NCBI GenBank assembly: GCA_963422465.1
Contig: OY730175.1
Coordinates: 930,001 to 994,000 of the forward strand
DNA: 64,000 bases
Reading direction: 5' to 3'
From: Lichina pygmaea
Taxonomy: Eukaryota > Ascomycota > Lichinomycetes > Lichinales > Lichinaceae
The notes under the pieces are model-generated. The model was given only the letters and a program-made list of their open reading frames with translations. It did no database searches and had not been told where the DNA came from. Positions 2,872 to 25,295 of this stretch are shown in pieces; position 1 is the first letter of the stretch, and each line of letters begins with the position of its first letter. The translations under genes and the position numbers were made by a program.

Positions 2872-2926
2872 CTCTGCTGGTGTTTCTGGGGTCGTGGTTC
2901 TGTTGGCGATGTGGGGGAGAGAGCAC

Positions 2927-3465
2927 CACGCACCGTTCAGACGGATACGTGGAAGGGCTTTTCCCCTGCCCACCAGGGACACAGAGAGCCACGCACCGAT
3001 CAGACGGATACGTGGAAGGGCTTTTCCCGTTGCCCAACTAGGACGCGGGGAGGAGAGCGGTATATATAACTGTCGTCGACCTTGAACAGTCCTTGGTTCC
3101 CGTTGTCCACCAGGGACACAGAGGACCACGCACCGTTCAGACGGATACGTGGAAGGGCTTTTCCCGTTGCCCAACTAGGACGCGGGGAGGAGAGCGGTAT
3201 ATATAACTGTCGTCGACCTTGAACAGTCCTTGATTCCCGTTGTCCACCAGGGACACAGAGGACCACGCACCGTTCAGACGGATACGCGGAATGGTTTTTT
3301 CCCTGGCCCACCAGGGACACAGAACCACGCACCGTTCAGACGGATACGCGGAATAGCTTTTCCCGTTGCCCAGCTAGGGACACGGGTTAGAAAAGCAGTA
3401 TATAGAATTGTCGGTGACTTTGAACAATCCTTGATATCCGTTGTCCACCAGGGACGCCGGAAACG
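2927..3465. repeat. Composite tandem repeat with alternating 62/63-bp and 137-bp units
   Basis: The phrase CACGCACCGTTCAGACGG recurs at 2927, 2990 (one base differs), 3127, 3264 and 3326. Spacings are 63, 137, 137 and 62 bp, followed by one diverged long unit. The long units at 2990 and 3127 differ at only about two positions, and each contains a TATATATA box. The short units lack the central block of about 75 bp. It has no CRISPR-like spacer logic and no coding signal. It could be a satellite, or tandem copies of a promoter or LTR fragment. Confidence 0.8.
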
Positions 3466-7526: not shown

Positions 7527-9161
7527 TTTATTTTATTTTATTTTATTCTTACACTGATTTAGCTGTAGAGCCATGCAGAACTTCTAGGTACATGTTTGTT
7601 TCTCCAGAAAACCTTTGGAGGAATAAAAACTGGAGCTTGGGAGAGACTAGGGAAAATCTTGTGGAATATGCAGTAGCTAAGGAAATTTGTACATGTAGCT
7701 ATTTGTTAAAACAAACAGTTGACTTGGTAGAGCTTAGAAAGAGAGTTGGTGGGCTAGGTTGAACTGGTCAAGTCTTTTCAAAGACATAAACCAGAAAAGA
7801 AGTTTAGGAAGTAGCTTGGAGTAGAATAAGATAGATGGGAAATCTTGTAGAGGGAATTGGACTTGTTGTCTTTAGTTTGAAAATTTGTTACAGAAAAAAG
7901 TGATGTGTTGGGCTGTTTCTTCTCCAAAACCACATGTGCATAGAGGGGAGTTAAAGTCTGGAACATTTGCTCTGAAAAGAAAACTGGCCAGTCCTATTCT
8001 TGCTGACAGAATTTGAAGAAATAGACTAGACTCAGCTTTTCTCAAATCTTTGAAGATATTGAGGTTTTTCTTCTGTGGCCTTCTGGTGAACATGTCCCAA
8101 ATAGCAGAACAATTTCCTCTGCTTACCTGCCATCTGGCTTCCCATTCTTTGTGGAAAACCTCCTGTAGACTTTTCTTTGAGAAGTCTTGGTTAGTAGTTA
8201 GTTGTTCCAGCCAGACTGTTCTCCAGTTTAGAGAAATAGTTGTCAGAGACTTTGGTGTAGTTCTGAGAGAAGAAACATAGAGAGAAATTTGACTGTGTAG
8301 TTTGTGGAGAAGTGTAGAAGGAGAGTTGGGTAGTGTGTTTGAATAGAAAGATGAAAGAAAACATGCTGTTCTCAGCTTGAAGTATAAGTCTAGAGGGGGT
8401 AGAAATAGTTCTGATTCAAGTAGGAAAATAGGAGTGGCTTTAAAGACACCTCCTATAGTTCTTAAACATTTATTTTGGAAAGTAGATAATGAAATAATAT
8501 TAGAGAGTTTCTTTTGGGGATTGAACCAGACTCCTACTGCATAACTAAGAAGAGATCTTAGTATAGCAGTGTAGACATGACGTGCTGTTAGGACTGGTAG
8601 TCCCCAAGTAGAGTAGGTTGTTCTGGATAAAGCTGAGAAATATTTGGAGGCTTTCTGTGACATGATTTTTTGGTGTTTTTTCCAGACAAGTTTTGAGTCA
8701 AAGTAAAGTCCCAAGATGCGCACTTCTTCTTTTGGTTGAAGTACCACTTCTCCAAGTCTTTGACTGAGCTGAAGATTGTCTCTTCTTCTTCTAGAAAAAT
8801 GGAGAAGTTCATACTTTTCAGGTGCAAACTTCATACCATGTTTTCTTGCCCAGTCCTGACATTTGGAATGTGTAGACTTCAACTTGAGAAGGTTGCTTTT
8901 CAAGGAGGAGGAGAATGTAAGAAGATTAGTGTTATCTGCAAAACCAAGTGCTGAAACTCCTTTCTCAGGGGTGTGTACAGTATTGTGCAGTTCTGAGATA
9001 TAGAAAAGAAATAGAATAGGAGAGAAAGGTGATCCTTGAGGGACTCCACAGTATATAGGGAACTGGGGGGATTCTGAGTCATCAAACACCAGAGAGGTAG
9101 TACGTGAAGTAGTGAAGGAAAAGATCCAGGATACAAACCACTTAGGAATCATTCTCTTAAT

Positions 9162-9755
9162 TGTTGCGGTCCGTACTGTACTGTCCTATCCGAGTATAGG
9201 ATTAGGGCGAGAGGTGGAAGGCAGGTTGGTTCTCGCAGGAGAGGAGTGTCAAGGAGCGTGAAGGGGTTTGGTGGAACATGGTGGTGGTGACACCTGATCA
9301 ACAGCTTCGTACAAAAGGATTGTGTTGAAGTAGATCTAGTTGTCTGGATCACAACATGAGTTGAAGATGATTGTTCTATAGGGGAACTATCACCAGACTA
9401 TATAGTGCCCAGTTTGTGAGCAGAGTGAGCTCTGCTCACTTTGCTCACTTTTCATGCACGCTGCAGTGAGCTGGGTGAGCTCTGCTCACTTTGCTCACTT
9501 TTCATGCACGCTGCGGTGAGCTGGGTGAGCTCTGCTCACTTTGCTCACTTTTCATGCACGCTGTGGCGAGCTGGGTGAGCTCTGCTCACTTTGCTCACTT
9601 GTTCGTGCATATGCATGCTGCGGCGAGCACCCCCTGGTTTGTCTCGCCGGTCACGTGACTGGTTCCCGTGTCACGCTGTCTGGTACTTCTGTCCAGTATC
9701 CTGTCTGCTGCTTTCTGTGAGTATATAAAGACTGTGTTCCTCCTGGGTCATAACA
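9162..9755 (-). repeat. 3' LTR of element 1 (594 bp)
   Basis: It begins TGTTGCGG and ends CATAACA in plus-strand reading. It contains four units of a 50-bp tandem repeat (about 9410-9630), a palindromic CTATATAG (9398-9405) and, pointing plus, TATATAAA at 9722-9729. Confidence 0.93.
9722..9729 (+). promoter_or_regulatory. TATA box in the 3' LTR facing the opposite-strand reading frame
   Basis: TATATAAA lies 70 bp upstream of the ATG at 9799 and points the same way, opposite to gag-pol. The same box at the same distance is present in element 2. Promoter activity is inferred from position and sequence. Confidence 0.55.
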
Positions 9756-9798
9756 CTATCCTCCTCTCTATCTTTCATCATCTTGATGAAATCTGGTC

Positions 9799-10203
9799 AT
9801 GCCTCCAAAGTCATGTGCGACTGTTAGCCGAACTCAGCTGGCTGCTCAAATCCACGATCAGGGTTTTGTTTTGCGTACACCCTGCGACTTTTGTGTTCTC
9901 CGTGGTCGTCCGTGCTTCCAGATGCCGGGAGAAGACAATAAGTTGAAATGTGCTGTGTGCACTCAGCGCGGAAGGTCTTGTGTCTCTGTGTCCTGGGAAT
10001 CTTTGAACATGTCCCGGGACAACCTCTGTGAGGATGTTGCCGCTGACAAGGCAACACGCGATGCACTCTTTGAACAACTTGCCACAGTGCAGGCTTGTCT
10101 GTCTCGGAAGCGAAAGGTGTTGGAGGGCGCCGAGGTCTGTGCGAGGCAGAAGCTTCAGTGCTTGGTGAAAGAGATGGAGTCGGATAGCGAGGATTTGACT
10201 TGA
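9799..10203 (+). CDS. Opposite-strand Zn2Cys6-like protein of the chromovirus
   Basis: This 134-residue frame runs opposite to gag-pol, between the chromodomain end and the 3' LTR. Cysteines at 29, 32, 39, 51, 54 and 61 give CX2CX6CX11CX2CX6C, the spacing of Gal4-type Zn(II)2Cys6 clusters. Basic residues sit in the first loop (VLRGRP) and near the last Cys (TQRGRS). The stretch after residue 75 (DNLCEDVAADKATRDALFEQ and onward) is helical and charged, like a coiled coil, and the protein ends in an acidic tail (SDSEDLT). A DNA-binding or regulatory role is inference. The ATG is preceded by a TATA box within the LTR, and the 3' end stops just short of the integrase/chromodomain frame. This copy looks whole. 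Confidence 0.6.
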   Translation: MPPKSCATVSRTQLAAQIHDQGFVLRTPCDFCVLRGRPCFQMPGEDNKLKCAVCTQRGRSCVSVSWESLNMSRDNLCEDVAADKATRDALFEQLATVQACLSRKRKVLEGAEVCARQKLQCLVKEMESDSEDLT

Positions 10204-10240
10204 TCAGTCATTGACACATCCCTCCTGCAGGCTGAGCTGT

Positions 10241-13200
10241 TCAGTCCTGCTTCTGCCAAAACTGTCGCAGAAGAAGCTGGCAGTTCGCGAGGTTCTTGAG
10301 TGGTTCCCAGGTATTTTCTGAGTCTGGGTATCCTTTCCACTTGACGAGGTATTGCTGACCTTTTCTAGCCAGGATCTGTTCAACCTCAAACTCTTGTTCT
10401 TCTTCGGGTTGGTAATGGAATGTTTCCTGCAAGGGTGTGCTCTGGTCGGCTGGTTCAATCATTGATATATGAAAGTTTGGATGGACTCTGGCATCCCTTG
10501 GTAGTCGTATCTTGACGTTGACTGGTCCTGTTTTTTCTTCGACTGAAAATAGTCTGACCTTGATGTTGTCAAGTTTCTTTGTCTTTGGTTTCTTTGTTTT
10601 CCAATTTCTTGTAAGGAGGTAGACTTTATCCCCCTTCTTTAGCTGAAGTGCCATTTTCGATTTCTTATCTATTTGACATTGCATTCTTTCTGAGGTTTCT
10701 TGAAGGTAGTGCCTCATCATCGTGTGTGTTTGTCGTAGGAGCTTGTCATGTTGGAGTGCTTTCTCCGTGTTTGGTGAAGCTCTGCTTGGCATCCTGATGT
10801 TCGCATGTTGTCCAAAATTGGCAAAAAATAGTGATTCCTTTGTTGAGTCTGATCTGTGCTGGTTGATTGCCAGCTGTGCCACCAGTAATAACTGTACCTA
10901 ATTGCTGTGGGTCTGGTTGATGTAATGCCGTAAGTAAGTCTCCAGGACTTGGTTTGCTTGCTCTGTCTGGCTGTCAGTTTGTGGGTGATAGGCCGTAGAC
11001 ATTTTGGGTTTTGTTCCCATGGCTGCACTGATTGTCTTCCAGTAGTTGGATGTGAAGAGTTTGTCTCTGTCTGTAATGATCGTGATCAGAACTCCGTGGT
11101 CTCTGACCAATCTGTCCAGTAAAAGGTGTCCCAACTGTTCTGCTGTGTGGGTCTCCTTGAATAGTACCGCTATTAGATATTTTGTGAATCTGTCCACTAT
11201 CACCATAATCAAGTTGTAGGTGATTTCTGTGACTGGGTCTTTGGACTTGGGTAGCTTTGTGATGAAGTCTATTGACATGTCTTTCCACGGGCCTCTCAGT
11301 ATTGTGTTCGGGTGTCCTTCTCCGTATGGCTTGTGTCTTCCATGTTTGTTTTTCTGGCATAGTAGACACTTGCTGATGTAGTTTGTGACATGTTGTCAGA
11401 GGTTAATGACATTGTTCCCTACCTGTTGGATAAGGTCTGTGGTCTTGGAGATTCCTGGGTGACCATGTGCTGGATTATCGTGGTAGTTCTTTATTAGTTC
11501 TTCAGTGTCTTCTGCCGTGAGCTTGTTGATCTGTGGTTGAGGCACCAGGTTTCCTTGCTGGTCCTGCTGTAAGATTGTTCCTTGGTGTTCATCATCTTCC
11601 ATGTGGTCTTTTTGTCAGCTTAGTGCGTCTGCTCTCCTGTTGTCTTGTCCAGGGGTGTACAAGATCTTGAACTTGTGTTGCCCTAGGAGTTCAGCCTATC
11701 TGACTTGCTGTCTGTTCAGCTTCTTGGTTGTTGTGAACATTGTCAGATTCTTGTGGTCTGTGAGAACAGTGAGTTCAGAACTGCTTTCTGTGTACACTCT
11801 CCAGTGTTCGAGTGCGTTGACAACTGCCAGTAGCTCTTTATCGTGGATATCATAGTTTTGTTCCGCTTGTGTCATTTTTTGTGAGTAGTAGGCAACTGGG
11901 TGCCACTTGCCGTCTGCCTGTTGGCATAGACATACTCCCACTGCCTGATCTGAAGTGTCTGTCTTGATTCGTGTTGGTTGGCCTGTCTTGAAGTTGAGGA
12001 GAACTGGTTCCTTGGTGCAAGTGTCCTTGAGCTGTTGGAATGCTTTTTGTTATCTCTCCGTCCACCGGTACTCCACGTTCTTCTTTGTGAGTTCTGTTAG
12101 TGGTGTTGCCATTTGTGAGTAGTTCTTAATGAACTGTCAGTTGAAGTTGGCAAATTCTAGGAAGGCTTGTACTTCCTTAACTGACATTGGTGTTGGCCAT
12201 TGCTGAATCACTTTGATTTTCTCAGGGTCAATCTTGATCCCTTCAATCCCTATGACATATCCAAGGAATTCAACTTCCAGTTTGTTGAACTTGTATTTCT
12301 TTGGGTTGAGCTTGAGCCTTGCCTGTTGTAGGCATCGTAGAACATCCTTCACATGTTTGGTATGTTCTTGTTACATGTTCGAGTAGACAAGAATGTTGTC
12401 CAGGTAGGCGATAGCTGTTTGGTCCAGGTGTGCTCTGATGATGTTGTTGATCAATGCTTGACATGTTGCTGGTGTGTTTGTGAGTCTGAATAGCATAACC
12501 AGATACTCGTAGTGTCTGTATCAGGTTCTGAAGGCTGTCTTCCATTCTTCTCCTTCTTTCATACATATCAGGTTGTATGCTCCTTTCAAGTCCAGCTTGG
12601 TAAAGATTGTAGCTTGGCTGATCCTGTCTCGCAATTCGTTCACATTTGGCAACAGATATCAGTTCTTGATGGTAATGTTGTTGAGTTTCCTGTAATCCAC
12701 ACAAAGTCGAAGACTTCTGTCTTTCTTTGGTGCAAATAGTATCAGGTATCCTGCTGGCGATTGAGATTCTTGAATGAAACCCTTTTTCAGGTTTTCCTCC
12801 AGGTACTTGCGAAGTACTTGGAGCTCTTTCTCTGATAACTGGTAAATTGGTCCAAATCCTGGCTCTGTCCCTGGTTGCAACTTGATCTCATGATCCCAAG
12901 GTTGGTGCTTAGGCAACACTGCTGTTGTTGTCTCTTCCTGAAAGAGGTTATCATACCCAGGTCAGTACTCTTCAGGGATCTCCAGAGGGTTAACAACTTC
13001 CTCTCTCTTCATCTCTGACTGTTTGGCCACCTGGTTCTGGGGTGTGCCTGTCAAGGCAGACCTCTTCTTTTGAGAGTTGTCCTTTCTGTCAGTGAGGTTC
13101 CACTAAGGACTCCTTCCCTTATCTGTCCACACTTTCTGCAGCTGGTAACAGGTCTGAGCTGTGTTGTTAGTGCAGTTCCTAAATGTGAGTACTTCTGTCT

Positions 13201-15078
13201 TCCAGTTAACAACTGGGTTGTGCTTCTTTAGCCAAGGCATCCCCAAATAGATATCCTGAGTGGCCAACTTGACAATATCAAGGTGGATTCTTTCAGCATG
13301 GTGTCTGGTAACTATTTCCATTGGCTGCGTCTCATAGCAGACTAGCTCTGTCTGTCCATTTGCCATCGTGAGCTGATAGGGCTGCTGCTTGCATCTCCTT
13401 CCAGTGCCGAGGGTATTGTAAAGTTGTCTCAAGATGTAGTTTCCACTGGCTCCAGAGTCAACAAGTGTGTATGTCCGTACTGGCGTGTTGGTGTGTAGTG
13501 ACACAGGTAATCACAGGTGCTTTGCGTTGCTAGGGGTCATGTTGTTGAGCTCCTGATGTCACCCCTTGACAAGGGAGTTCAGTCTTTTCCTGATCAAAGT
13601 GTCTTACCACTGACTGGGCAATAGGTCCAGCTATTCCCATCAGTTCTGAGGAATCTGTTCATGAATTTGTCTTACTGATGCTTGTCACATCCAGGCTTGA
13701 GGCAGTACTGCCAATTGTCAACATAGCAGTTGTAGTTGTTGTCTTGCTGTAGGAACATGAGGTGTTCGTGCCAATTATGTGTGTGCCCGGGGAATACAGT
13801 GTGTTGGCATTTGTCCCAAAGATGGATCTCACACACATCCTTCTCGCAATTGACCCAATGCTTGTGGCAGGTGGTGTGGTAGGGTGAATGTCCTCTGTAC
13901 CTTTGTAGTTGTTCGTGGTAGGTGCAGTAGTGCTTTGTGCAAAACCTCCACTGTAGTTCACCATGCTGTAGATTTCTTGAGTCCATGCTGTAAGCATAGC
14001 TTCCTTGTAGTATTTCTTCTTTGATAGACGTGGGTTTGTCTCAGTCCCCATCAGAGGTGGTTAAGAGCTCCTGTCCCTTGTCCTGACCTGTCTGTTCTGG
14101 TAGGTTCTTGCCTCCTGATATTGCCAGTTGGTGGGCTGCTTCCAATGTCTGATCATAGTTGTCCTATTGTTTGAGGGATAGCTGAGCCTCTCCTGGTGGG
14201 TCCTCTGGCTTGATGATATTCCAGTCTCTGTCAAGTGTATTAAGTTGCTGTCGGTGCATCTTGTTCTTTGAACAACAGTCTTTCACCATGTGGCCTAGCT
14301 TGCCACAGGTATAGCACTTCAGTGCTTTCCCCTTTTTGTTGTTCCTTCCCTTCGTGAACCTTCCCTTGTGGTGGACTGCATCCAGTTCCATGGGTGCATA
14401 GCCATATGGGTCATGTGGTGGTGTCTTGTTAGGCAGCTTGTAGTGGTTGCTCACATGCCATGTGGGGTGGCTGTATCCTCTGTCATGGTGTTTCTCCATT
14501 GCTTGCTTGAATAGCTTGTCATTGATGTTGATTGCTTGTGTGATGAGTTTGTCCAGTGTGTTGACTGCTTATCCATCAAAGGTGATTTCATCCTTCATGT
14601 TTTCCTTGAGTCCACGTCAGTACATGACCATCAGGGTGTTGTTGTCCCAGTCAGTCAGTACTGAGTATTGTTTGAACTGCGTGGTGTACTCTGCAGCTGA
14701 GTGTTGTTGTTTGATGTGCTGGATCATTCGTATAGCCACTTTGTCTTTGTTAGATAGTCCAAGGATCCTTTTGATCTTGTCCTTGAATTGTGTCTATTTT
14801 GTCATCCATTCTGTTGTGCTGTTGTGGTCCCTGTTTCCTGAGAGATGTTTGTTGACGTAGGGCTTGATCCATCAATAAGCATTACCTCTCATGTAAGTGG
14901 TTGCGAAGAGGGGTCACTTGTCCTTAGGCAGCTTTGTCTCTGGTTGGAATTGAAAGTAGACTTGGAGTTGCATGAGCCAGTCGTCAACCTTGTTCCTTTC
15001 GCTGTAGAACAGGTCTGGCTTGGCGACACTAATCTTTCCATCTGGGAAGTTGGGGTTGGTTGCTCCTGAGGTACTCAT
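10241..15078 (-). pseudogene. Element 1 gag-pol remnant
   Basis: Recognisable pieces in order: Gag start at 15078, CCHC knuckle (CYTCGKLGHMVKDC), protease with LVDSGASGNYI, reverse transcriptase with CVDYRKLNN, RNase H with VLTDHKNL, integrase zinc-binding region, integrase core with IVDRFTKYLI, and chromodomain with YLVKWKGYPDSENTWEPL. The chromodomain identifies a chromovirus; such domains target integration to marked chromatin (family knowledge). The coding region is broken in more than ten places. Confidence 0.9.
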
Positions 15079-15096
15079 CCTTGAGGGTCTTCAAAG

Positions 15097-15590
15097 TGTT
15101 GCAGTCTGTACTGTACTGTCCTATCTGAGTATAGGATTAGGGCAAGAGGTGGAAGGCAGGTTGGTTCTCACAGGAGAGGAGTGTCAAGAAGTGTGAAGGG
15201 GTTTGGTGGAACATGGTGGTGGTGACACCTGATCAACAGCTTCGTACAAAAGGATTGTATTGAAGTAGATCTAGTTGTCTGGATCACAACATGAGTTGAA
15301 GATGATTGTTCCATAGGGGAACTATCGCTGGACTATATAGTGCCCAGTTTGTGAGCAGAGTGAGCTCTGCTCACTTTGCTCACTTTTCATGCACGCTGCG
15401 GTGAGCTGGGTGAGCTCTGCTCACTTTGCTCACTTGTTCATGCATATGCATGCTGCGGCAAGCACCCCCTGGTTTGTCTCGCCGGTCACGTGACCAGTTC
15501 CCGTGTCACGCTGTCTGGTACTTCTGTCCAGTATCCTGTCTGCTGCTTTCTGTGAGTATATAAAGACTGTGTTCCTCCTGGGTTGTAACA
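15097..15590 (-). repeat. 5' LTR of element 1 (494 bp)
   Basis: Matches the 3' LTR but carries only two units of the 50-bp tandem repeat, exactly 100 bp shorter. CTATATAG at 15333-15340 is a candidate sense TATA box for the element transcript. Confidence 0.92.
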
Positions 15591-18500
15591 TTAATCAGGA
15601 TCTTTCTGAGAACTTCTGGCAAGACTCTGTCATAGGCTCCAGAGATGTCTAGAGAGAGAAGACTAGCAACCATTCCTTCTTTCCAGATCTTTTCTACCTG
15701 GAAGGTCAGAAGAAAAAGTGCTGATTCTGTTGATCTTTCTTTTCTGAATCCTATCTGGATTTCTGGCAAGAGATTTTCTTTCTCAGCTAGTTCACTTAGT
15801 CTTGCAGCTGCAATAGCTTCCATTAGCTTCCCAATTGTATTCAGGAGAGCTATAGGGCGCCATGCTTTTGCTTGACAGTAGGATCTCTTGCCAGGTTTCC
15901 TTAGGCAGATTGTCTTGGCTGACTTGTACCTGTCTGGAAAGTATTCCAGTCTCCAGCAAGCCTCCAAAACCTTAGCAATTCTTTTGTTGAAAGGGTCTCC
16001 CAGTGCTCTTAGAAATCCATTTGGTAGAGTATCTTGGCCTGGTGCTGAGAGAGGTTTTTTCTTCTTTAGAACTTCTTGCACTTCTTCCTTGGAGACTTCT
16101 TGGGATAGTTGCCATTCCTGGGTTTCTTCTGGCAGGTCCTGTTCCTCTGGCTCTGGCTGTAGGGGAAGAGGGAAGAATTGAGTCCTGAAAGCTTCTGTTT
16201 TCTCTTCAAAAGACTTTGCCAGCTGTCCTTGTTGTCCTATAAGTTCTGGGACTATTGGTAGGTCAGGAACTTTGCCGGCTTTTTCTTTTCCCTATTTGGC
16301 AATTCTCCAGTAGTTCTGGGTTTCTGCTAGCTGGTGGAGATGTGTTCTGAGTGTCTTTCTTTTGGCTTGTCTGATCAGACTCTTTTTCTTTTTAGTTATC
16401 TCCTCTAGTCTGGTGGTTTCCTCTTGGACTTGGAGTACTTTTCTTCTTACTTTTCTTTCCTCCTGGATTATTTCTTTGATTTCCTGGTTCCACCATAGTA
16501 CTGCATACCTGGACTCTTTGCAAGTTTGGGTTGTCTTGTTTGCAATTTCTTGGAGAGTTTTGTCCAGTCTTTCCAGGTAATCATCCACTTCTTTCTTGCT
16601 AGTAAGAGATAGAATAGGTGGTAGGTTATCAGCTTCTTGTCTTGCTTGACTAGCATCCAGAGTTCTCCAGTTCTTTTTGTCTGTTCTGGTTTTTCTTGGA
16701 GTCTCCAGACTGAGAATTGTGTGCACTGGTCTGTGGTCTGACCCTGTGTGGAATCTCATGTTAATTTGTGAGTAAATAAGAGAATTAAGTAAAGAACTTG
16801 AAATAAAAGAAAGATCAATTGCTGATGAAGGTGGTTCTAGAAGAGTTCTTGCTCTTGTTGGTGTGTAGGGAGCTATTGCCAGCTCTAGTCCCCATTTGTC
16901 TGTTAGGTTCTTGAAGGATAAGGCCAGTTCTGAGTATAGCTGGCTTGACTTTGACCAACTTGAGTGGTGGAGATTTGAGTCTGTCAGGAGAATATGTTCA
17001 CCCTCTTTTTGGATAGCTTGTTCCAGTAGGTCTAGAAGAGTCTGAGCTGACTCTCTATAGTTCCTTTGGCTTGTGGGTGTGAAATAGAGGTTGTGGATCC
17101 AGAATGACTTTGTTTGAACTCTTATCTCCAAGGAGACTAGATCTTTACTCCAGAAAATTGAGCTTATAGATGACCGCAAAATTCTTCTGTTAACAAGAAC
17201 AAGTGTTCTCCCTAGCTCCTGGCTTTGTAAAGGGTAGAAGGCTGAGAATGTTGTAGAGATGCTTGATTCTTGGTGGGGGTTTTTCCAGGGTTCTTGCAGA
17301 GTGATGATGTCCACTTCCTGTAGTCTAGGGTTTGCCAGTAGAAGTTCTTGGCATGTCTGGCTTTTCTGGACATTGTACTGGAGAAGGTTAAGTGTGGAGT
17401 AACTCATTAATCCTCTTGGCTAGGGTTGTCCAAGATCTCAGTAGCTTTTTTTCTGGGTATGTTGATTTGGAACTCTGAGTTCTGTGCAAGTGGGAAAGTG
17501 GGGAGCTGAGTGTTCAGTCTTGAGCCTGAGCATGCTCTTAGTACTTTCCCTTGTTTTCTTTTCTTAGCTTCTTGTCTGTCTTGTAGACTTGGCCCTTTTT
17601 CTTGTGTTGAGGGAGTCTGAGGTAGAGCTAGTCTGGGAGCTGTTGTGTACCTCCCTGGTCTTGCTAGCTATACCTCTCTTGCTTTCTGGATTGCTTCCTG
17701 TTTTTTCTGGCAGGACTTTGACCAGGCTGGGTGGTTTCCCTCGCAGTTTGCACATTTTGGTGTTAGAGTTTCTGGAGAAGTCTGGCAGTCTCTTCTGGCA
17801 TGCTTTCCTCCACAGGCTGTGCACTGGGCTTGGGCTTGGCAAGTGCGTGCTTGGTGTCCAAACCTAGCACATTTGTAGCACTGGGTGACTGATGTTGCTA
17901 GCAGGGCTGGTTCTACTTCATGTAGAGTGTATCCTAGAACTACTCCTTTCTCAATTAGGAGGTTTGCTTGCTCTGGGGTGGCTAGATCCAGATGTAGAGA
18001 TGTGACTGGCTTCTGGAGGAGTTTGGCTTTTCTGGACCAGTAGGTTCTTAGGATGTTGACCTTACTTTCCATCCCAGGGTTTTGGGAGAAGATTGTCTTT
18101 TTTGTTTCCTCCAGGTTTTCTGGCTTGAAGTCTTTTGTCTGCACCCCATAGACTAGCACTGGAAAGATTCTGGGTGATATCTTGGCCTCTGCTGTAAAGA
18201 CAGCTGGGATCCAGTCCTTGTTTTCCTCTAGCTGAGTCTTGGCTTGAGGAGTTTCCAGAGAGATTATAATATCTCCTGAGGGTAGTTTTCTGGCTGCTCT
18301 TATTTCTTTTTGGCAGGAGAGTGGTGTTTTCTTCTTGAGAGCTTCCATGAGCTGGGCTGGTGTTCTGTTTGCTAACTGGCCAGTCTGAGTTCCAGGTCTG
18401 ATAGTGATTTCACTGTGGATTCTGGTTGGAACAGGGATTTCCTGTCCTACTGTTTTCTGGGCTGCCTGGGCATATGTTGGCTTGGTGTTTTGTTTTTGGA

Positions 18501-18780: not shown

Positions 18781-19424
18781 TGTTGCAGTCCGTACCGTAC
18801 TGTCCTATCCGAGTATAGGATTAGGGTGAGAGGTGGAAGGTGGGTTGGTTCTCGCAGGAGAGGAGTGTCAAGGAGTGCGAAGGGGTTTGGTGGAATATGG
18901 TGGTGGTGACACCTGATCAACAGCTTCGTACAAAAGGATTGTATTGAAGTAGATCTAGTTGTCTGGATCACAACATGAGTTGAAGACGATTGTTCCATAG
19001 GGGAACTATCGCCAGACTATATAGTGCCCAGTTTGTGAGCAGAGTGAGCTCTGCTCACTTTGCTCACTTTTCATGCATGCTGCAGTGAGCTGGGTGAGCT
19101 CTGCTCACTTTGCTCACTTTTCATGCATGCTGTGGTGAGCTGGGTGAGCTCTGCTCACTTTGCTCACTTTTCATGCACGCTGCGGTGAGCTGGGTGAGCT
19201 CTGCTCACTTTGCTCACTTTTCATGCACGCTGCGGTGAGCTGGGTGAGCTCTGCTCACTTTGCTCACTTGTTTGTGCATATGCATGCTGCGGCAAGCACC
19301 CCCTGGTTTGTCTCACCAGTCATGTGACCGGTTTCCGTGTCACGCTGTCTGGTACTTCTGTCCAGTATCCTGTCTGCTGCTTTCTGTGAGTATATAAAGA
19401 CTGTGTTCCTCCTGGGTCATAACA
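18781..19424 (-). repeat. 3' LTR of element 2 (644 bp)
   Basis: The longest LTR of the four, with five units of the 50-bp tandem repeat. TATATAAA at 19391-19398 points plus, 70 bp before the ATG at 19468. Confidence 0.92.
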
Positions 19425-19467
19425 CTATCCTCCTCTCCATCTTTCATCATCTTGATGAAATCTGGTC

Positions 19468-19870
19468 ATGCCTCCAAAGTCACGTGCGACTGTTAGCCGA
19501 ACTCAGCTGACTGCTCAAATCTGCGATCAGGGTTTTGTTTCACGTACACCCTGCGACTTTTGTGTTCTCTGTGGTTGTCTGTGCTTCCAGATACTGGGAG
19601 AAGATGATAAGTTGAAATGTGCTGTGTGCACTCAGCACGGAAGGTCTTGTGTCTCTGTGTCCTGGGAATCTTTGAACATGTCCCGGAACAACCTCTGTGA
19701 GGATGTTGCCACTGACAAGGCAACACACGATGCACTCTTTGAACAACTTGCCACAGTGCAGGCTTGTCTGTCTTGGAAGTGAAAGGTGTTGGAGGGCGCC
19801 AAGGTCTGTGCAAGGCAGAAGCTTCAGTGCTTGGTGAAAGAGATAGAGTCAGATAGTGAGGATTTGACTT
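19468..19870 (+). pseudogene. Opposite-strand Zn2Cys6-like frame of element 2
   Basis: Homologous to the 9799-10203 frame of element 1 along its length. The six cysteines of the CX2CX6CX11CX2CX6C pattern are all kept, together with the upstream LTR TATA box at the same distance. This copy looks broken in its second half. Its presence in both elements shows the frame belongs to the family and is not a chance feature of one copy. Confidence 0.6.
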
Positions 19871-19909
19871 GATTGGTCATTGACACATCCCTCCTGCAGG
19901 CCGAGCTGT

Positions 19910-22900
19910 TCAGTCCTGCTCCTGCCAAAACTGTTGCAGAAGAAGCTGGCAGTTTGCGAGGTTCTTGAGTGGTTCCCAGGTATTTTCTGAGTCTGGGTAT
20001 CCTTTCCACTTGACAAGGTATTGCTGACCTTTTCTAGCCAGGATCTGTTCAACCTCAAACTCTTGTTCTTCTTCGGGTTGGTAATAGAATGTTTCCTGCA
20101 AGGGTGTGCTCTGGTCAGCTGGTTCAATCATTGATATATGAAAGTTTGGATGGACTCTGGCATCCCTTGGTAGTCGTATCTTGATGTTGACTGGTCCTGT
20201 TTTTTCTTTGACTGAAAATAGTCTGACCTTGATGTTGTCAAGTTTCTTTGTCTTTGGTTTCTTTGTTTTCCAATTTCTTGTAAGGAGGTAGACTTTATCC
20301 CCCTTCTTTAGCTGAGGTGCCATTTTCGATTTCTTGTCTATTTGATGTTGCATTCTTTCTGAGGTCTCTTGAAGGTAGTGCCTCATCATCGTGTGTGTTT
20401 GTCGTAGGAGCTTGTCATGTTGGAGTGCTTTCTCCATGTTTGATGAAGCTCTGCTTGGCATCCCGATGTTCGTATGTTGTCCAAAATTGGCAAAAAATGG
20501 TGATTCCTTTGTTGAGTCTGATCTGTGCTGGTTGATTGCCAGCTGTGCCACCAGTAATAACTGTACCCAATTGCTGTGGGTCTGGTTGATGTAATGCTGT
20601 AAGTAAGTCTCCAGGACTTGGTTTGCTTGCTCTGTCTGGCTGTCAGTTCATGGGTGATAGGCCGTAGACATTTTGGGTTTTGTTCCCATGGCTGCACTGA
20701 TTGTCTTCCAGTAGTTGGATGTGAAGAGTTTGTCTCTGTCTGTAATGATCGTGATTGGAACTCCGTGGTCTCTGACCAATCTGTCCAGTAAAAGGTGTCC
20801 CAACTGTTCTGCTGTGTGGGTCTCCTTGAATGGTACTACTATTAGATATTTTGTGAATCTGTCCACTATCACCATAATCAAGTTGTAGGTGATTCCTGTG
20901 ACTGGGTCTTTGGACTTGGGTAGCTTTGTGATGAAGTCCATTGACATGTCTTCCCACAGGCCTCTCAGTATCGTGTTCGGGTGTCCTTCTCCGTATGGCT
21001 TGTGTCTTCCATGTTTGTTTTTCTGGCATAGTAGACACTTGCTGATGTAGTTTGTGACATGTTGTCAGAGGTTAATGATATTGTTCCCTACCTGTTGGAT
21101 AAGGTCTGTGGTCTTGGAGATTCCTGGGTGACCATGTGCTGGATTATCATGGTAGTTCCTTATTAGTTCTTCAGTGTCTTCTGCCGTAAGCTTGTTGATC
21201 TGTGGTTAAGGCACCAGGTTTCCTTGCTGGTCCTGCTATAAGATTGTTCCTTGGTGTTCATCATCTTCCATGTGGTCTTTTCGTCAGCTTAGTGCGTCTG
21301 CTCTCCTGTTGTCTTGTCCAGGGGTGTACAAGATCTTGAACTTGTGTTGCCCTAGGAGTTCAGCCCATCTGACTTGCTGTCTGTTCAGCTTCTTGGTTGT
21401 CGTGAACATTGTCAGATTCTTGTGGTCTGTGAGAACAGTGAGTTCAGAACTACTTTCCACGTACACTCTCCAGTGTTTGAGTGCGTTGACGACTGCCAGT
21501 AGTTCTTTATCGTGGATATCATAGTTTTGTTCTGCTTGTGTCATTTTTCGTGAGTAGTAGGCAACTGGGTGCCACTTGCCGTCTGCCTGTTGGCATAGAC
21601 ATGCTCCCACTGCCTGATCTGAAGTGTCTGTCTTGATTTGTGTTGGTTGGCCTGTCTTGAAGTTGAGGAGAACTGGTTCCTTGGCGCAAGTGTCCTTGAG
21701 CTGTTGGAATGCTTTTTGTTGTCTCTCTGTCCACCGGTACTCCACATCCTTCTTTGTGAGTTCTGTTAGTGGTGTTGCCATCTGTGAGTAGTTCTTAATG
21801 AACTGTCAGTTGAAGTTGGCAAATCCTAGGAAGACTTGTACTTCCTTAACTGACATCAGTGTTGGCTATTGCTGAATCACTTTGATTTTCTCAGGGTCAA
21901 TCTTGATCCCTTCAATCCCTATGACATATCCAAGGAATTCAACTTCCAGTTTGTTGAACTCACATTTCTTTGGGTTGAGCTTGAGCCCTGCCTGTTGTAG
22001 GTATTGTAGAACATCCTTCACATATTTGGTATGTTCCTGTTGCGTATTCGAGTAGACAAGAATGTTGTCCAGGTAGGTGATAGCTGTTTGGTCCAGGTGT
22101 GCTCTGATGATGTTGTTGATCAATGCTTGACATGTTGCTGGTGTGTTTGTGAGTCTGAATGGCATAACCAGATACTTGTAGTGTCCGTATCAGGTTCTGA
22201 AGGCTGTCTTCCATTCTTCTCCTTCTTTCATGCGTATCAGGTTGTATGCTCCTTTCAAGTCTAGCTTGGTAAAGATTGTAGCTTGGCTGATCCTGTCTCG
22301 CAATTTGTTCGCATTTGGCAACAGATATCAGTTCTTGATGGTAATGTTGTTGAGTTTCCTGTAATCCACACAAAGTTGAAGACTTCCGTCTTTCTTTGGT
22401 GCAAATAGTATCGGGTATTCTGCTGGTGATTAAGATTCTCGAATGAAACCCTTTTTCAGGTTTTCCTCCAGGTACTCGCGAAGTACTTGGAGCTCTTTCT
22501 CTGATAACTGGTAAATTGGTCCAAATCCTGGCTCTGTCCCTGGTTGCAACTTGATCTCATGATCCCAAGGTTGGTGCTTAGGTAACACTGCTGTTGTTGT
22601 CTCTTCCTGAAAGAGGTTATCATACCCAGGTCAGTACTCTTCAGAGATCTCCAGAGGGTTAACAACTTCCTCTCTCTTCATCTCTGACTGTTTGGCCACC
22701 TGGTTCCAGGGTGTGCCTGTCGAGGTGGACCTCTTCTCTTGAGAGTTGTCCTTTCTGTCAGTGAGGTTCCACTGAGAACTCCTTCCCTCATCTGTCCACA
22801 CCTTCTGCGGCTGGTAACAGGTCTGAGCTGTGTTGTTAGTGCAGTTCCTAAATGTGAGTACTCCTGTCTTCCAGTTAACAACTGGGTTGTGCTTCTTTAG

Positions 22901-24747
22901 CCAAGGCATCCCCAAATAGATATCCTGAGTGGCCAACTCGACAATATCAAGGTGGATCCTTTCAGCATAGTGTCCAGTAACTATTTCCATTGGCTGCGTC
23001 TCATGGCAGACTAGCTCTGTCTGTCCATTTGCTATTGCGAGCTGATAGGGCTGCTGCTTGCGTCTCCTTCCAGTGCTGAGGGTATCGTAAAGTTGTCTTG
23101 AGATGTAGTTTCCACTGGCTCCAGAGTCAACAAGTGCGTATGTCTGTACTGGCGTGTTGGCGTGTAGTGACACAGGCAATCGCAGGTGCTTTGCATTGCT
23201 AGGAGTCATGTTGTTGAGCTCCCGATGTCACCCCTTGACAAGGGAGTTCAGTCTTTTCCTGATCGAAGTGTCTTACCACTGACTGGGCAATGGGTCCAGC
23301 TATTCCCATCAGTTCTGAGGAATCCGTTCATGAATTTGTCTTGCTGATGCTTGTCACATCCAGGCTTGAGGCAGTACTGCTAATTGTCAACGTAGCAGTT
23401 GTAGTTGTTGCCTTGCTGTAGGAACATGAGGCGTTCGTGCCAATTATGTGTGTGCCCGGGGAATGCGGTGTGTTGGTGTTTGTCCCAAAGATAGATCTCA
23501 CACGCATCCTTCTCGCAATTGACCCAATGCTTGTGGCAGGTGGTGTGGTAGGGTGAATGTCCTCCGTACCTTCGTAGTTGTTTGTGGTAGGTGCAGTAGT
23601 GCTTTGTGCAAAACCTCCACTGTAGTTCACTGTGCTGTAGATTTCGTGGGTCCATGCTGTAAGCATAGCTTTCTTGTGGTATTTCTTCTTTGATAGACGT
23701 GGGTTTGTCTCAGTCCCCATCAGAGGTGGTTAAGGGCTCCTGTCCCTTGTCCTGACCTGTCTGTTCTGGTAGGTTCTTGCCTCCTGATGTTGCCAGTTGG
23801 TGGGCTGCTTCCAATGTCTGATTGTAGTTGTCCTATTGTTTGAGGGATAGCTGAGCCTCTCCTGGTGAGTCCTCTGGCTCGATGACATTCCAGTCTCCGT
23901 TGAGTGTATTAAGTTGCTGTCAGTGTACCTTGTTCTTTGAATGACAGTCTTTCGCCATGTGGCCTAGCTTGCCACAGGCATAGCACTTCAGTGCTTTCCC
24001 CTTTTTGTTGTTTCTTCCTTTTGTGAACCTTCCCTTGTGGTGGACTGCATCCAGTTCCATGGGTGCATAGCCATATGGGTCATGTGGTGGTGCCTTGTTA
24101 GGCAGCTTGTAGTGGTTGCTCACATGCCATGCGGGGTGGCTGTATCCTCTGTCGTGGCGTTTCTCCATCGCTCGCTTGAATAGCTTGTCATCAATGTTGA
24201 TTGCTTGTGCGATGAGTTTGTCCAGTGTGTCGACTGCTCATCCGTCAAAGGTGATTTCATCCTTCATGTTTTCCTTGAGTCCACGTCAGTACATGACCAT
24301 CAGGGCGTTGTCGTCCCAGTCAGTCAGTACTGAGTATTGTTTGAACTGCGTGGTGTACTCTGCGGCTGAGCGTTGTTGTTTGATGTGCTGGATCATTCGT
24401 ATAGCCACTTTGTCTTTGTTAGATAGTCCAAGGATCCTTTTGATCTTGTCCTTGAATTGTGTCCATTTTGTCATCTATTCTGTTGTGCCGTCGTGGTCTC
24501 TGTTTCCTGAGAGATGTTTGTTGACGTAGGGCTTGATCCATCGATAAGTATTGCCTCTCATGTAAGTGATTGCGAAGAGGGGCCACTTGTCCTTAGGCAG
24601 CTTTGTCTCTGGTTGGAATTGAAAGTAGACTTGGAGTTGCATGAGCCAGTCGTCAACCTTGTTCCTTTCGCCGTAGAACAGGTCTGGCTTGGTGACACTA
24701 ATCTTTCTATCTGGGAAGTTGGGGTTGGTTGCTCCTGAGGTACTCAT
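19910..24747 (-). pseudogene. Element 2 gag-pol remnant
   Basis: Gag starts at 24747 (MSTSGATNPNFPDRKISV). Recognisable parts follow the same order as element 1, ending with chromodomain motif YLVKWKGYPDSENTWEPL near 19910-20075. The RNase H region is one of the longest continuous pieces. About ten or more breaks in total. Confidence 0.9.
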
Positions 24748-24765
24748 CCTTGAGGGTCTTCAAAG

Positions 24766-25295
24766 TGTTGCGGTCTGTACTGTACTGTCCTATCCGAGTA
24801 TAGGATTAGGGTGAGAGGTGGAAGGCGGGTTGGTTCTCGCAGGAGAGGAGTGTCAAGGAGCGCGAAGGGGTTTGGTGGAATGTGGTGGTGGTGACACCTG
24901 ATCAACGGCTTCGTACAAAAGGATTGTATTAAAGTAGATCTAGTTGTCTGGATCACAACATGAGTTGAAGATGATCATTCCATAGGGGAACTATCACCGG
25001 ACTATATAGTGCCCAGTTCGTGAGCAGAGTGAGCTCTGCTCACTTTGCTCACTCAGTGAGATAAGTGAGCTCTGCTCACTTTGCTCACTTTTCATGCACG
25101 CTGCGGCGAGCTGGGTGAGCTCTGCTCACTTTGCTCACTTGTTTGTGCATATGCATGCTGCGGCGAGCACCCCCTGGTTTGTCTCGCCGGTCACGTGACT
25201 GGTTCCCGTGTCACGCTGTCTGGTACTTCCGTCCAGTATCCTGTCTGCTGCTTTCTGTGAGTATATAAAGACTGTGTTCCTTCTGGGTCGTAACA
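24766..25295 (-). repeat. 5' LTR of element 2 (530 bp)
   Basis: Matches the other LTRs. Its 50-bp repeat block has two units plus a shortened 36-bp one, which accounts for its length. Confidence 0.92.

Follow-up and report, generated by a model that had tools for sequence, protein, structure and literature searches.

A chromovirus in the genome of Lichina pygmaea (Ascomycota; Lichinomycetes) carries, antisense to gag-pol and between pol and the 3′ long terminal repeat (LTR), a 134-codon frame that is, judged by its pattern of substitutions, a real protein-coding gene. The element lies in a 64,000-nucleotide stretch of DNA (contig OY730175.1 of assembly GCA_963422465.1, positions 930,001 to 994,000, forward strand), hereafter the window, whose coordinates are used throughout. 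The protein is predicted to bind the unique 3′ (U3) region of LTRs of its own family and to regulate gag-pol in trans, an account that we consider probable, if well short of certain. An earlier, sequence-only reading of this DNA had proposed a small antisense regulator; the coding gene, the Gal4-type cysteine rule, the helix and the kept antisense TATA box in the LTR were borne out, while the cut-off of the Pfam family Zn_clus was not reached.

The chromovirus occupies 9162-15589, with gag-pol on the minus strand. The features on which the argument depends are:

9162-9754, minus strand: 3′ LTR with borders TG...CA; U3 adjoins 9754 and the repeat and unique 5′ regions (R-U5) adjoin 9162, the U3/R/U5 division being putative
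9398-9405, minus strand: CTATATAG, candidate sense TATA box at the U3/R border, seen as sequence, with a presumed function
9416-9609, no strand: U3 array of candidate binding sites, 3.9 units of 50 bp with GTGAGC/GCTCAC inverted repeats at spacers of 3, 12 and 21
9722-9729, plus strand: TATATAAA, antisense TATA box inside the 3′ LTR, seen as sequence, its position kept among copies
9799-10203, plus strand: antisense gene, 134 amino acids, from an ATG start to a TGA stop
9883-9981, plus strand: six-cysteine cluster, residues 29-61, CX2CX6CX11CX2CX6C
9994-10191, plus strand: long helix, residues 66-131, probably a coiled coil, with the acidic end ESDSEDLT
10241-10882, minus strand: end of pol with SH3_Tf2-1 and the chromodomain, stop at 10241

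The antisense frame and its coding constraint

The 134-residue frame and its cysteine spacing had been described exactly; the cysteines stand at residues 29, 32, 39, 51, 54 and 61. The TATA-type box reported upstream inside the LTR was located as TATATAAA at 9722, 77 nt before the ATG. The frame had also been placed opposite gag-pol. It is antisense to the element, but it does not overlap pol, whose stop lies at 10241; it takes up the stretch that separates pol from the 3′ LTR.

The genome searched (32.5 Mb, 8 contigs) contains at least 150 matches to the window frame, nearly all over its full length. These are referred to as A, and single copies are cited by L numbers. A second subfamily, B, has at least 150 genomic matches of its own and keeps all 134 codons without gaps, at 64 to 73% identity to L025 (19 B rows aligned). 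The A copies extracted were those that scored highest against the window copy, 20 of the B copies (L069-L088) were taken from stop-free matches, and a filter for full-length rows without gaps removed L060, L062, L066 and L067. Sixty of the 64 extracted copies have the full set of six cysteines (34 of 36 A, 26 of 28 B), and among stop-free copies 20 of 21 A and 19 of 21 B do. Of the 42 stop-free copies, 34 make up alignment A1, in which the window copy represents L001. That the cysteines are invariant in A1 carries no weight, since three of the eight copies left out (L035, L084 and L088) lack a cysteine.

Between A and B, the ratio of non-synonymous to synonymous substitution rates (dN/dS) was 0.095 or about 0.19 for 21 A and 21 B stop-free copies, depending on the transition weight; it came to 0.195 over the 441 pairs of these copies, and to 0.206 with stops included (972 pairs, 36 A × 27 B; the mosaic copy L056 was left out of B for dN/dS and kept for the U3 half-site and TATA counts). 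A ratio near 1 across family members, named by the sequence-only reading as evidence against a gene, did not emerge; the value between A and B is about 0.2. The A-B differences are distributed over the three codon positions as 32:23:71, and when the same differences were re-placed at randomly drawn sites that match in base and CpG class, none of 300 trials gave so few amino acid changes, for six of six pairs and in both directions. For the other five frames the A-B ratios were 1.56, 2.02, 1.33, 0.37 and 2.35 (108 pairs), the frame with 0.37 sharing the third position and being closed by stops. The ratio was 0.66 within A and 0.58 within B, and 60% of the pairwise differences within A sit at CpG. 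These values fit copies decaying after insertion, as expected, with the CpG share pointing to decay by methylation or by a process like repeat-induced point mutation. Coding on the sense strand was rejected, as no minus frame is open in any of the 36 A copies. The minus frame open in 18 of 28 B copies was judged a by-product because its dN/dS is 2.3 in the A-B comparison.

Two alternatives meet this coding signal directly. A chance open frame with a chance cysteine pattern could appeal to the failure of any curated family to reach its cut-off; it was rejected on the codon-position pattern, the placement test and the dN/dS of the frame, and the occurrence in four families, the purifying selection and the kept TATA box make it close to inconceivable. 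Alternatively, the antisense RNA itself might be the agent, through double-stranded RNA and silencing, with the frame as a by-product. LTR antisense transcripts are described for other elements in parts of PMC7264820, but the coding signal largely refutes this idea, which we hold to be very improbable: dN/dS is about 0.2 here against 1.3 to 2.3 in four of the five other frames, the length stays the same, and all six cysteines recur in 60 of 64 copies.

Relative to the ATG, the sequence TATAAA is kept at -75 to -81 (34 of 36 A copies, 27 of 28 B copies), although the U3 upstream of it hardly aligns. Since this TATA box lies at the outer edge of U3, we infer that the antisense RNA would start about at the LTR border.

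A survey of related chromoviruses for the same frame had been suggested; beyond the 134 codons kept in B, two further families, C and D, carry an antisense gene at that place. Twenty loci, chosen from at least 150 chromodomain matches, were fetched. By DNA, 16 loci are A/B-like, and 15 of these match the antisense protein, while the remaining four, L049-L052, represent another chromovirus family, C, with an antisense frame at the same place in the three loci inspected (L049, L050 and L052). The frame of L050 encodes 176 amino acids from the ATG, with CX2CX6CX8CX2CX6C followed by a helical region and a tail that is both acidic and hydrophobic. The C-type search gave 61 matches of at least 85% identity, 53 of them without a stop, and at least 89 more at 57 to 70%, including family D (190 amino acids). 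Alignment A3 of the C/D proteins consists of L050 and 13 of 20 fetched loci (L107, L114-L118 and L123 are not in it), and all six cysteines are present in 12 of these 14 proteins, L113 and L121 each lacking one. In C and D the frame shares DNA with the end of pol, which is encoded on the opposite strand. The C-D dN/dS (33 pairs, 3 × 11) was 0.23 where the gene is free of pol; by part, it was 0.17 for the cluster, 0.30 for the helix and 0.60 for the tail that overlaps pol. Neither the A/B nor the C/D profile found relatives in viral contigs. A further A-like subgroup is formed by L058, L061, L062 and L067.

The cysteine cluster and the helix

The Zn2Cys6 family (PF00172) follows the cysteine rule CX2CX6CX5-12CX2CX6-8C, and this spacing is found in 34 of 36 A copies, 26 of 28 B copies and 12 of the 14 A3 rows. 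The profile match asked for by the sequence-only reading was not obtained, as none of 34 A/B or 14 C/D proteins reached the Zn_clus cut-off of 21 bits; support for a Zn2Cys6-like domain comes from profile-profile comparison and from families C and D only. For hhalign, 16 of the 38 Zn_clus matches listed in the same genome served as reference, and the profiles gave expect (E) values of 4.8e-4 (A/B) and 3.6e-4 (C/D), with the cysteines in register. Beyond the cysteine spacing, similarity to Zn_clus is a possibility: the hhalign score was reached by column shuffles that keep the cysteines in 1 of 100 (A/B) and 2 of 100 (C/D) cases, and by full column shuffles in 1 of 100 and 0 of 100. The A/B and C/D profiles align with each other over cluster and helix (E 0.009). 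Searches of the PDB with the antisense proteins and profiles yielded nothing significant: one C protein matched 7 chains with E values between 0.6 and 2.6, of which six were Hap1/Cyp1 or Gal4, and the A/B profile found no Hap1/Gal4-type chain.

On these comparisons we call the antisense protein Gal4-like, not a member of the Zn2Cys6 family. Like Gal4/Hap1-type proteins, it combines CX2CX6C-X8/11-CX2CX6C with a long helix, and inverted-repeat sites with a fixed spacer, candidate sites in the case of the antisense protein, go with both; unlike them, the antisense proteins stay below the profile cut-off, have only 134-190 amino acids and are accompanied by candidate half-sites that are not CGG. 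Gal4 sites consist of CGG half-sites in inverted repeats with an N11 spacer. AlphaFold2 was confident only for the helix, at residues 66-131 in A and 63-132 in C, and in the model of the window protein 45 residues have a predicted local distance difference test score of at least 90, mostly within helix 66-131. This helix is a probable coiled coil.

DUF3716 (PF12511), also a small cysteine-rich family, was rejected as the parent family, with the window protein at 12.7 bits against a cut-off of 22 (E 0.13) and a best E of 0.034 among weak matches in 5 of 34 A/B proteins. No chromovirus pol was seen beside DUF3716 frames among the loci listed. A small repeated DUF3716-like frame occurs at several places in the genome (L041, L044 and L045) and perhaps marks another mobile element. 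Ascomycete annotations commonly include small fungal proteins whose cysteines are similarly arranged.

Candidate U3 half-sites and their divergence together with the gene

The inverted repeats of U3 exceed those of dinucleotide shuffles: in eight of ten stretches the observed level was reached by 0 to 2 of 200 shuffles, and in L052 (C) and L110 (D) by 11 and 7 of 200. Half-site counts were 15 against 0.62 in shuffles, 12 against 0.25, 4 against 0.03 and 5 against 0.06. The U3 counts cover the 8 of 28 B rows, 4 C loci and 2 D loci with enough upstream sequence. The A half-site GTGAGC occurs 471 times in 36 A loci, 35 of which have it, and is absent from the 8 B, 4 C and 2 D loci. The B half-site, TC[GA]AGAC or TTGAGAC, occurs 74 times in the 8 B loci (7 have it) and in none of A, C or D. 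The half-site of C and D (GGACGAGC), GGAC[GA]AGC or GGATGAGC, was counted 16 times in four of four C loci and 14 times in two of two D loci, with none in B, and 7 sites of this type were found in one of the 36 A loci, L018. The exceptions L018, L061 and L064 are due to insertions in U3 as judged from the sequence: a D-type LTR stretch appears to be nested inside the U3 of A copy L018, placing D half-sites next to an A gene, and other DNA interrupts the U3 of A copy L061 and B copy L064.

When one A repeat unit was compared with one B unit, they were alike at 11 of 13 flank, 7 of 12 spacer and 4 of 12 half-site bases, with the arms complementary at 6 of 6 positions in each. A spacer of 12 between 6-base arms is found in A, B and C and once in D; such sharing by four families arose in 1 of 200 shuffles, a result weakened by the tandem units and by a doubled join in D. 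The half-sites of B, C and D hold CGAG and those of A TGAG, so that our initial idea that A and B half-sites share nothing is weakened, and CpG decay may explain part of the difference. An RNA hairpin could also keep the symmetry of the arms.

The U3 and the gene differ from the rest of the element in their divergence. In steps of 100 bases, A (window) and B (L065 and L066) are 92-98% identical in R-U5, 46-71% in U3, 59-76% in the gene and 81-95% at the end of pol, while the identity of C (L050) and D (L108 and L110) is 65-81% across the gene, 89-90% over the 100 bases that follow and 97-100% beyond them in pol. A single A copy and two each of B, C and D entered the stepwise comparison. For inner pol, one pair of each kind was compared: A and B agree at 95.5% of 1001 nt, C and D at 98.5% of 784 nt. 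At silent sites (31 A, 25 B copies), the A-B synonymous divergence was 1.22 in the gene versus 0.27 over the final 123 nt of pol. The copies L050, L108, L110, L126 and L127 of C and D likewise have nearly identical pol and strongly different antisense genes and U3.

Since U3 and the gene are both strongly diverged while pol is nearly identical, they appear to have had a history other than that of pol in two family pairs, for which swapping is the simplest reading. Copy L056 is a mosaic that joins a B-type cluster and a B-type U3 to an A-like helix, and together with the A-like subgroup it points to recombination inside the antisense gene. The U3 and the antisense gene may form an exchangeable regulatory cassette resembling the immunity region of temperate phages, in which a self-specific protein and matching sites would prevent cross-regulation between families with nearly identical pol, and new specificities would arise by joint change or by swapping. 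The identities of 95.5% and 98.5% in inner pol made this somewhat more likely in our estimate, where it stands as a tentative proposal at less than even odds.

These data also bear on the possibility that the product is a nuclear accessory protein, which binds nucleic acid in replication, nuclear entry or integration and takes no part in transcription, the U3 repeats serving host factors. Small cysteine clusters bind RNA as well, and host factors often bind the U3 repeats of LTR elements. In plant elements, some antisense proteins enter the nucleus, in a role that is not known, according to parts of PMC7264820. This alternative leaves unexplained why A and B half-sites differ despite alike flanks and partly alike spacers (one unit each), and why U3 and the gene diverged jointly against a nearly identical pol in two family pairs; we regard it as unlikely.

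In the model that we favor, the antisense TATA box, which lies at the outer edge of U3 and in the 3′ LTR points inward to the gene, would serve as the promoter of that gene. Its small protein product would combine a Gal4-type (Zn2Cys6-like) cluster with a long helix, through which it may dimerize, and an acidic tail. The dimer would bind the repeated inverted half-sites that lie in U3 between the two TATA boxes, antisense and sense, and act in trans on LTRs of its own family, setting both gag-pol output and its own expression. The CTATATAG string of the candidate sense TATA box is also present in copies L056 (B) and L058 (A). A single array of dimer-like sites thus sits between the antisense TATA box and the candidate sense one, an arrangement like that of a divergent promoter whose upstream sites are shared. 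Transcription, zinc binding, dimer formation, U3 binding and regulation are all predicted from sequence; control of its own expression by the antisense product gains support from the family-specific inverted repeats of U3.

The protein may be an activator or a repressor. As a brake, i.e. a repressor or competitor limiting the copy number of its own family, it would represent the favored model with a fixed sign, and the odds of the two overlap; taken by itself we find the brake rather unlikely, less so than an accessory role in the nucleus. The tail of the C/D proteins (FEDVFSSEALASLEPLSPS), which we take to resemble an acidic activation region, speaks against it. Nevertheless, a brake would be comparable in role to HBZ of human T-cell leukemia virus type 1 (HTLV-1) or to phage repressors, and a U3-gene cassette with family-specific sites is how an immunity module would be expected to look. 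An antisense promoter in the 3′ LTR is also found in HTLV (parts of PMC7264820), whereas the high copy numbers, at least 150 matches each for A and B, fit a brake poorly.

Several observations weigh against binding of U3 by a Gal4-like protein. Among 34 A/B proteins, Zn_clus appeared below its cut-off in one (E 0.84) and a zf-PHD-like weak match in nine (best E 0.0028). Among 14 C/D proteins, Zn_clus was the most frequent weak match, sub-threshold in eight (best E 0.0099; 15.7 bits for the member shown), and DNA_pol3_finger was found in seven, with a best E of 0.0082 versus 0.0099 for Zn_clus. The C/D profile finds RING finger chains first in the PDB and Cyp1/Hap1 only at E about 5, and the cluster is of low confidence in both structure models (A and C). 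The loops between cysteines 2 and 3, VLRGRP in A and VLNHKP in B, are presumably less basic than in most Gal4-type proteins. None of the 20 C/D-type loci has a TATA[AT]A at 130 nt or less from the start used, and L063, one of the 16 A/B-like loci, shows no antisense gene. The half-site is common to families C and D, yet their main spacers differ, and the half-site counts are not independent, coming from related copies and tandem units. Finally, the U3 and the gene are neighbors, so that they could be inherited together without any binding.

The element, comparable systems and significance

The assignment to the chromoviruses is based on Chromo (E 3.1e-17), SH3_Tf2-1, rve, gag-asp_proteas and zf-CCHC, each above its Pfam cut-off; the minus-strand gag-pol contains a chromodomain at the end of pol, SH3_Tf2-1, integrase, protease and a CCHC knuckle. 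The remaining features are:

9157-9161, no strand: left target site duplication TTAAT, partner of 15590-15594
9755-9775, minus strand: polypurine tract adjoining the 3′ LTR, purine-rich on the minus strand, with a function presumed from its position
15097-15589, minus strand: 5′ LTR, with two 50-bp U3 units fewer than the 3′ LTR
15590-15594, no strand: right target site duplication TTAAT, partner of 9157-9161
19468-19872, plus strand: antisense gene of the second chromovirus copy in the window, with one internal TGA; LTRs at 18781-19423 and 24766-25294

The second copy (18781-25294) has both LTRs, and its antisense frame carries the one TGA. Pieces of a long interspersed nuclear element (LINE) reverse transcriptase lie at 7872-9152 and 15506-16081 (RVT_1 model positions 90-203 and 3-107), and the chromovirus at 9162-15589 seems to be inserted into this LINE reverse transcriptase. 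Tandem repeats of 137 bp plus partial units, with the TATATATAAC string, occupy 2897-3455.

HTLV-1, a retrovirus of people, encodes in HBZ a regulator with a DNA-binding and dimer domain of the bZIP type, not a cysteine cluster. Among the Pfam matches listed for the A/B and C/D proteins there was no bZIP, and no shared descent is claimed. The likeness lies in the antisense promoter in the 3′ LTR (parts of PMC7264820). Within LTR retrotransposons, antisense genes between pol and the 3′ LTR are already known from the Boty brtn gene and the plant aORF-3R genes, as parts of PMC7264820, PMC8365987, PMC4227169, PMC5987419 and PMC5408684 report. In the aORF-3R genes (Grande gene23, RIRE2, Retand ORF4 and PvRetro13 ORF2) the antisense orientation and the place between pol and the 3′ LTR are those of the window gene, and Grande gene23 has its own promoter and a nuclear product (parts of PMC7264820). 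The coding constraint of an aORF-3R gene is also found here. The plant proteins differ in that they have no clear similarity to other proteins, apart from an SMC domain in PvRetro13 and a transposase 28 domain in Retand, and the available sections of PMC7264820 make no mention of a Gal4-type cluster or matched LTR sites for them.

The brtn gene was reportedly described by Zhao et al. (2011, Virology 417:248). It is the antisense gene of Boty-like chromoviruses of Botrytis cinerea (parts of PMC7264820, PMC8365987, PMC4227169 and PMC5987419) and resembles the window gene as an extra gene of a fungal CHROMO-domain element, antisense to gag-pol and between pol and the 3′ LTR. From these partial sources the comparison is by description only; the window gene may prove to be its homolog, and BRTN may share the cysteine cluster. 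A literature search whose reach did not extend to the original Boty study found, among the titles and opening lines of abstracts listed, none on a Gal4-like antisense gene with matching LTR sites, and the combination of a DNA-binding-type domain with matched LTR sites in an antisense gene looks new.

The function of antisense genes of LTR retrotransposons is not known, as stated in parts of PMC7264820. Here, a predicted DNA-binding domain and candidate sites stand in the same element, in four families and many copies, so that the function of such a gene becomes a simple question of binding and reporter assays. If the model is true, the element may switch itself on or off through its protein and the sites in its own LTR, and retrotransposons would possess regulators specific to themselves, comparable to HBZ of retroviruses or the repressors of phages. 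This would matter for the control of copy number and for how ready-made regulatory sites spread through fungal genomes.
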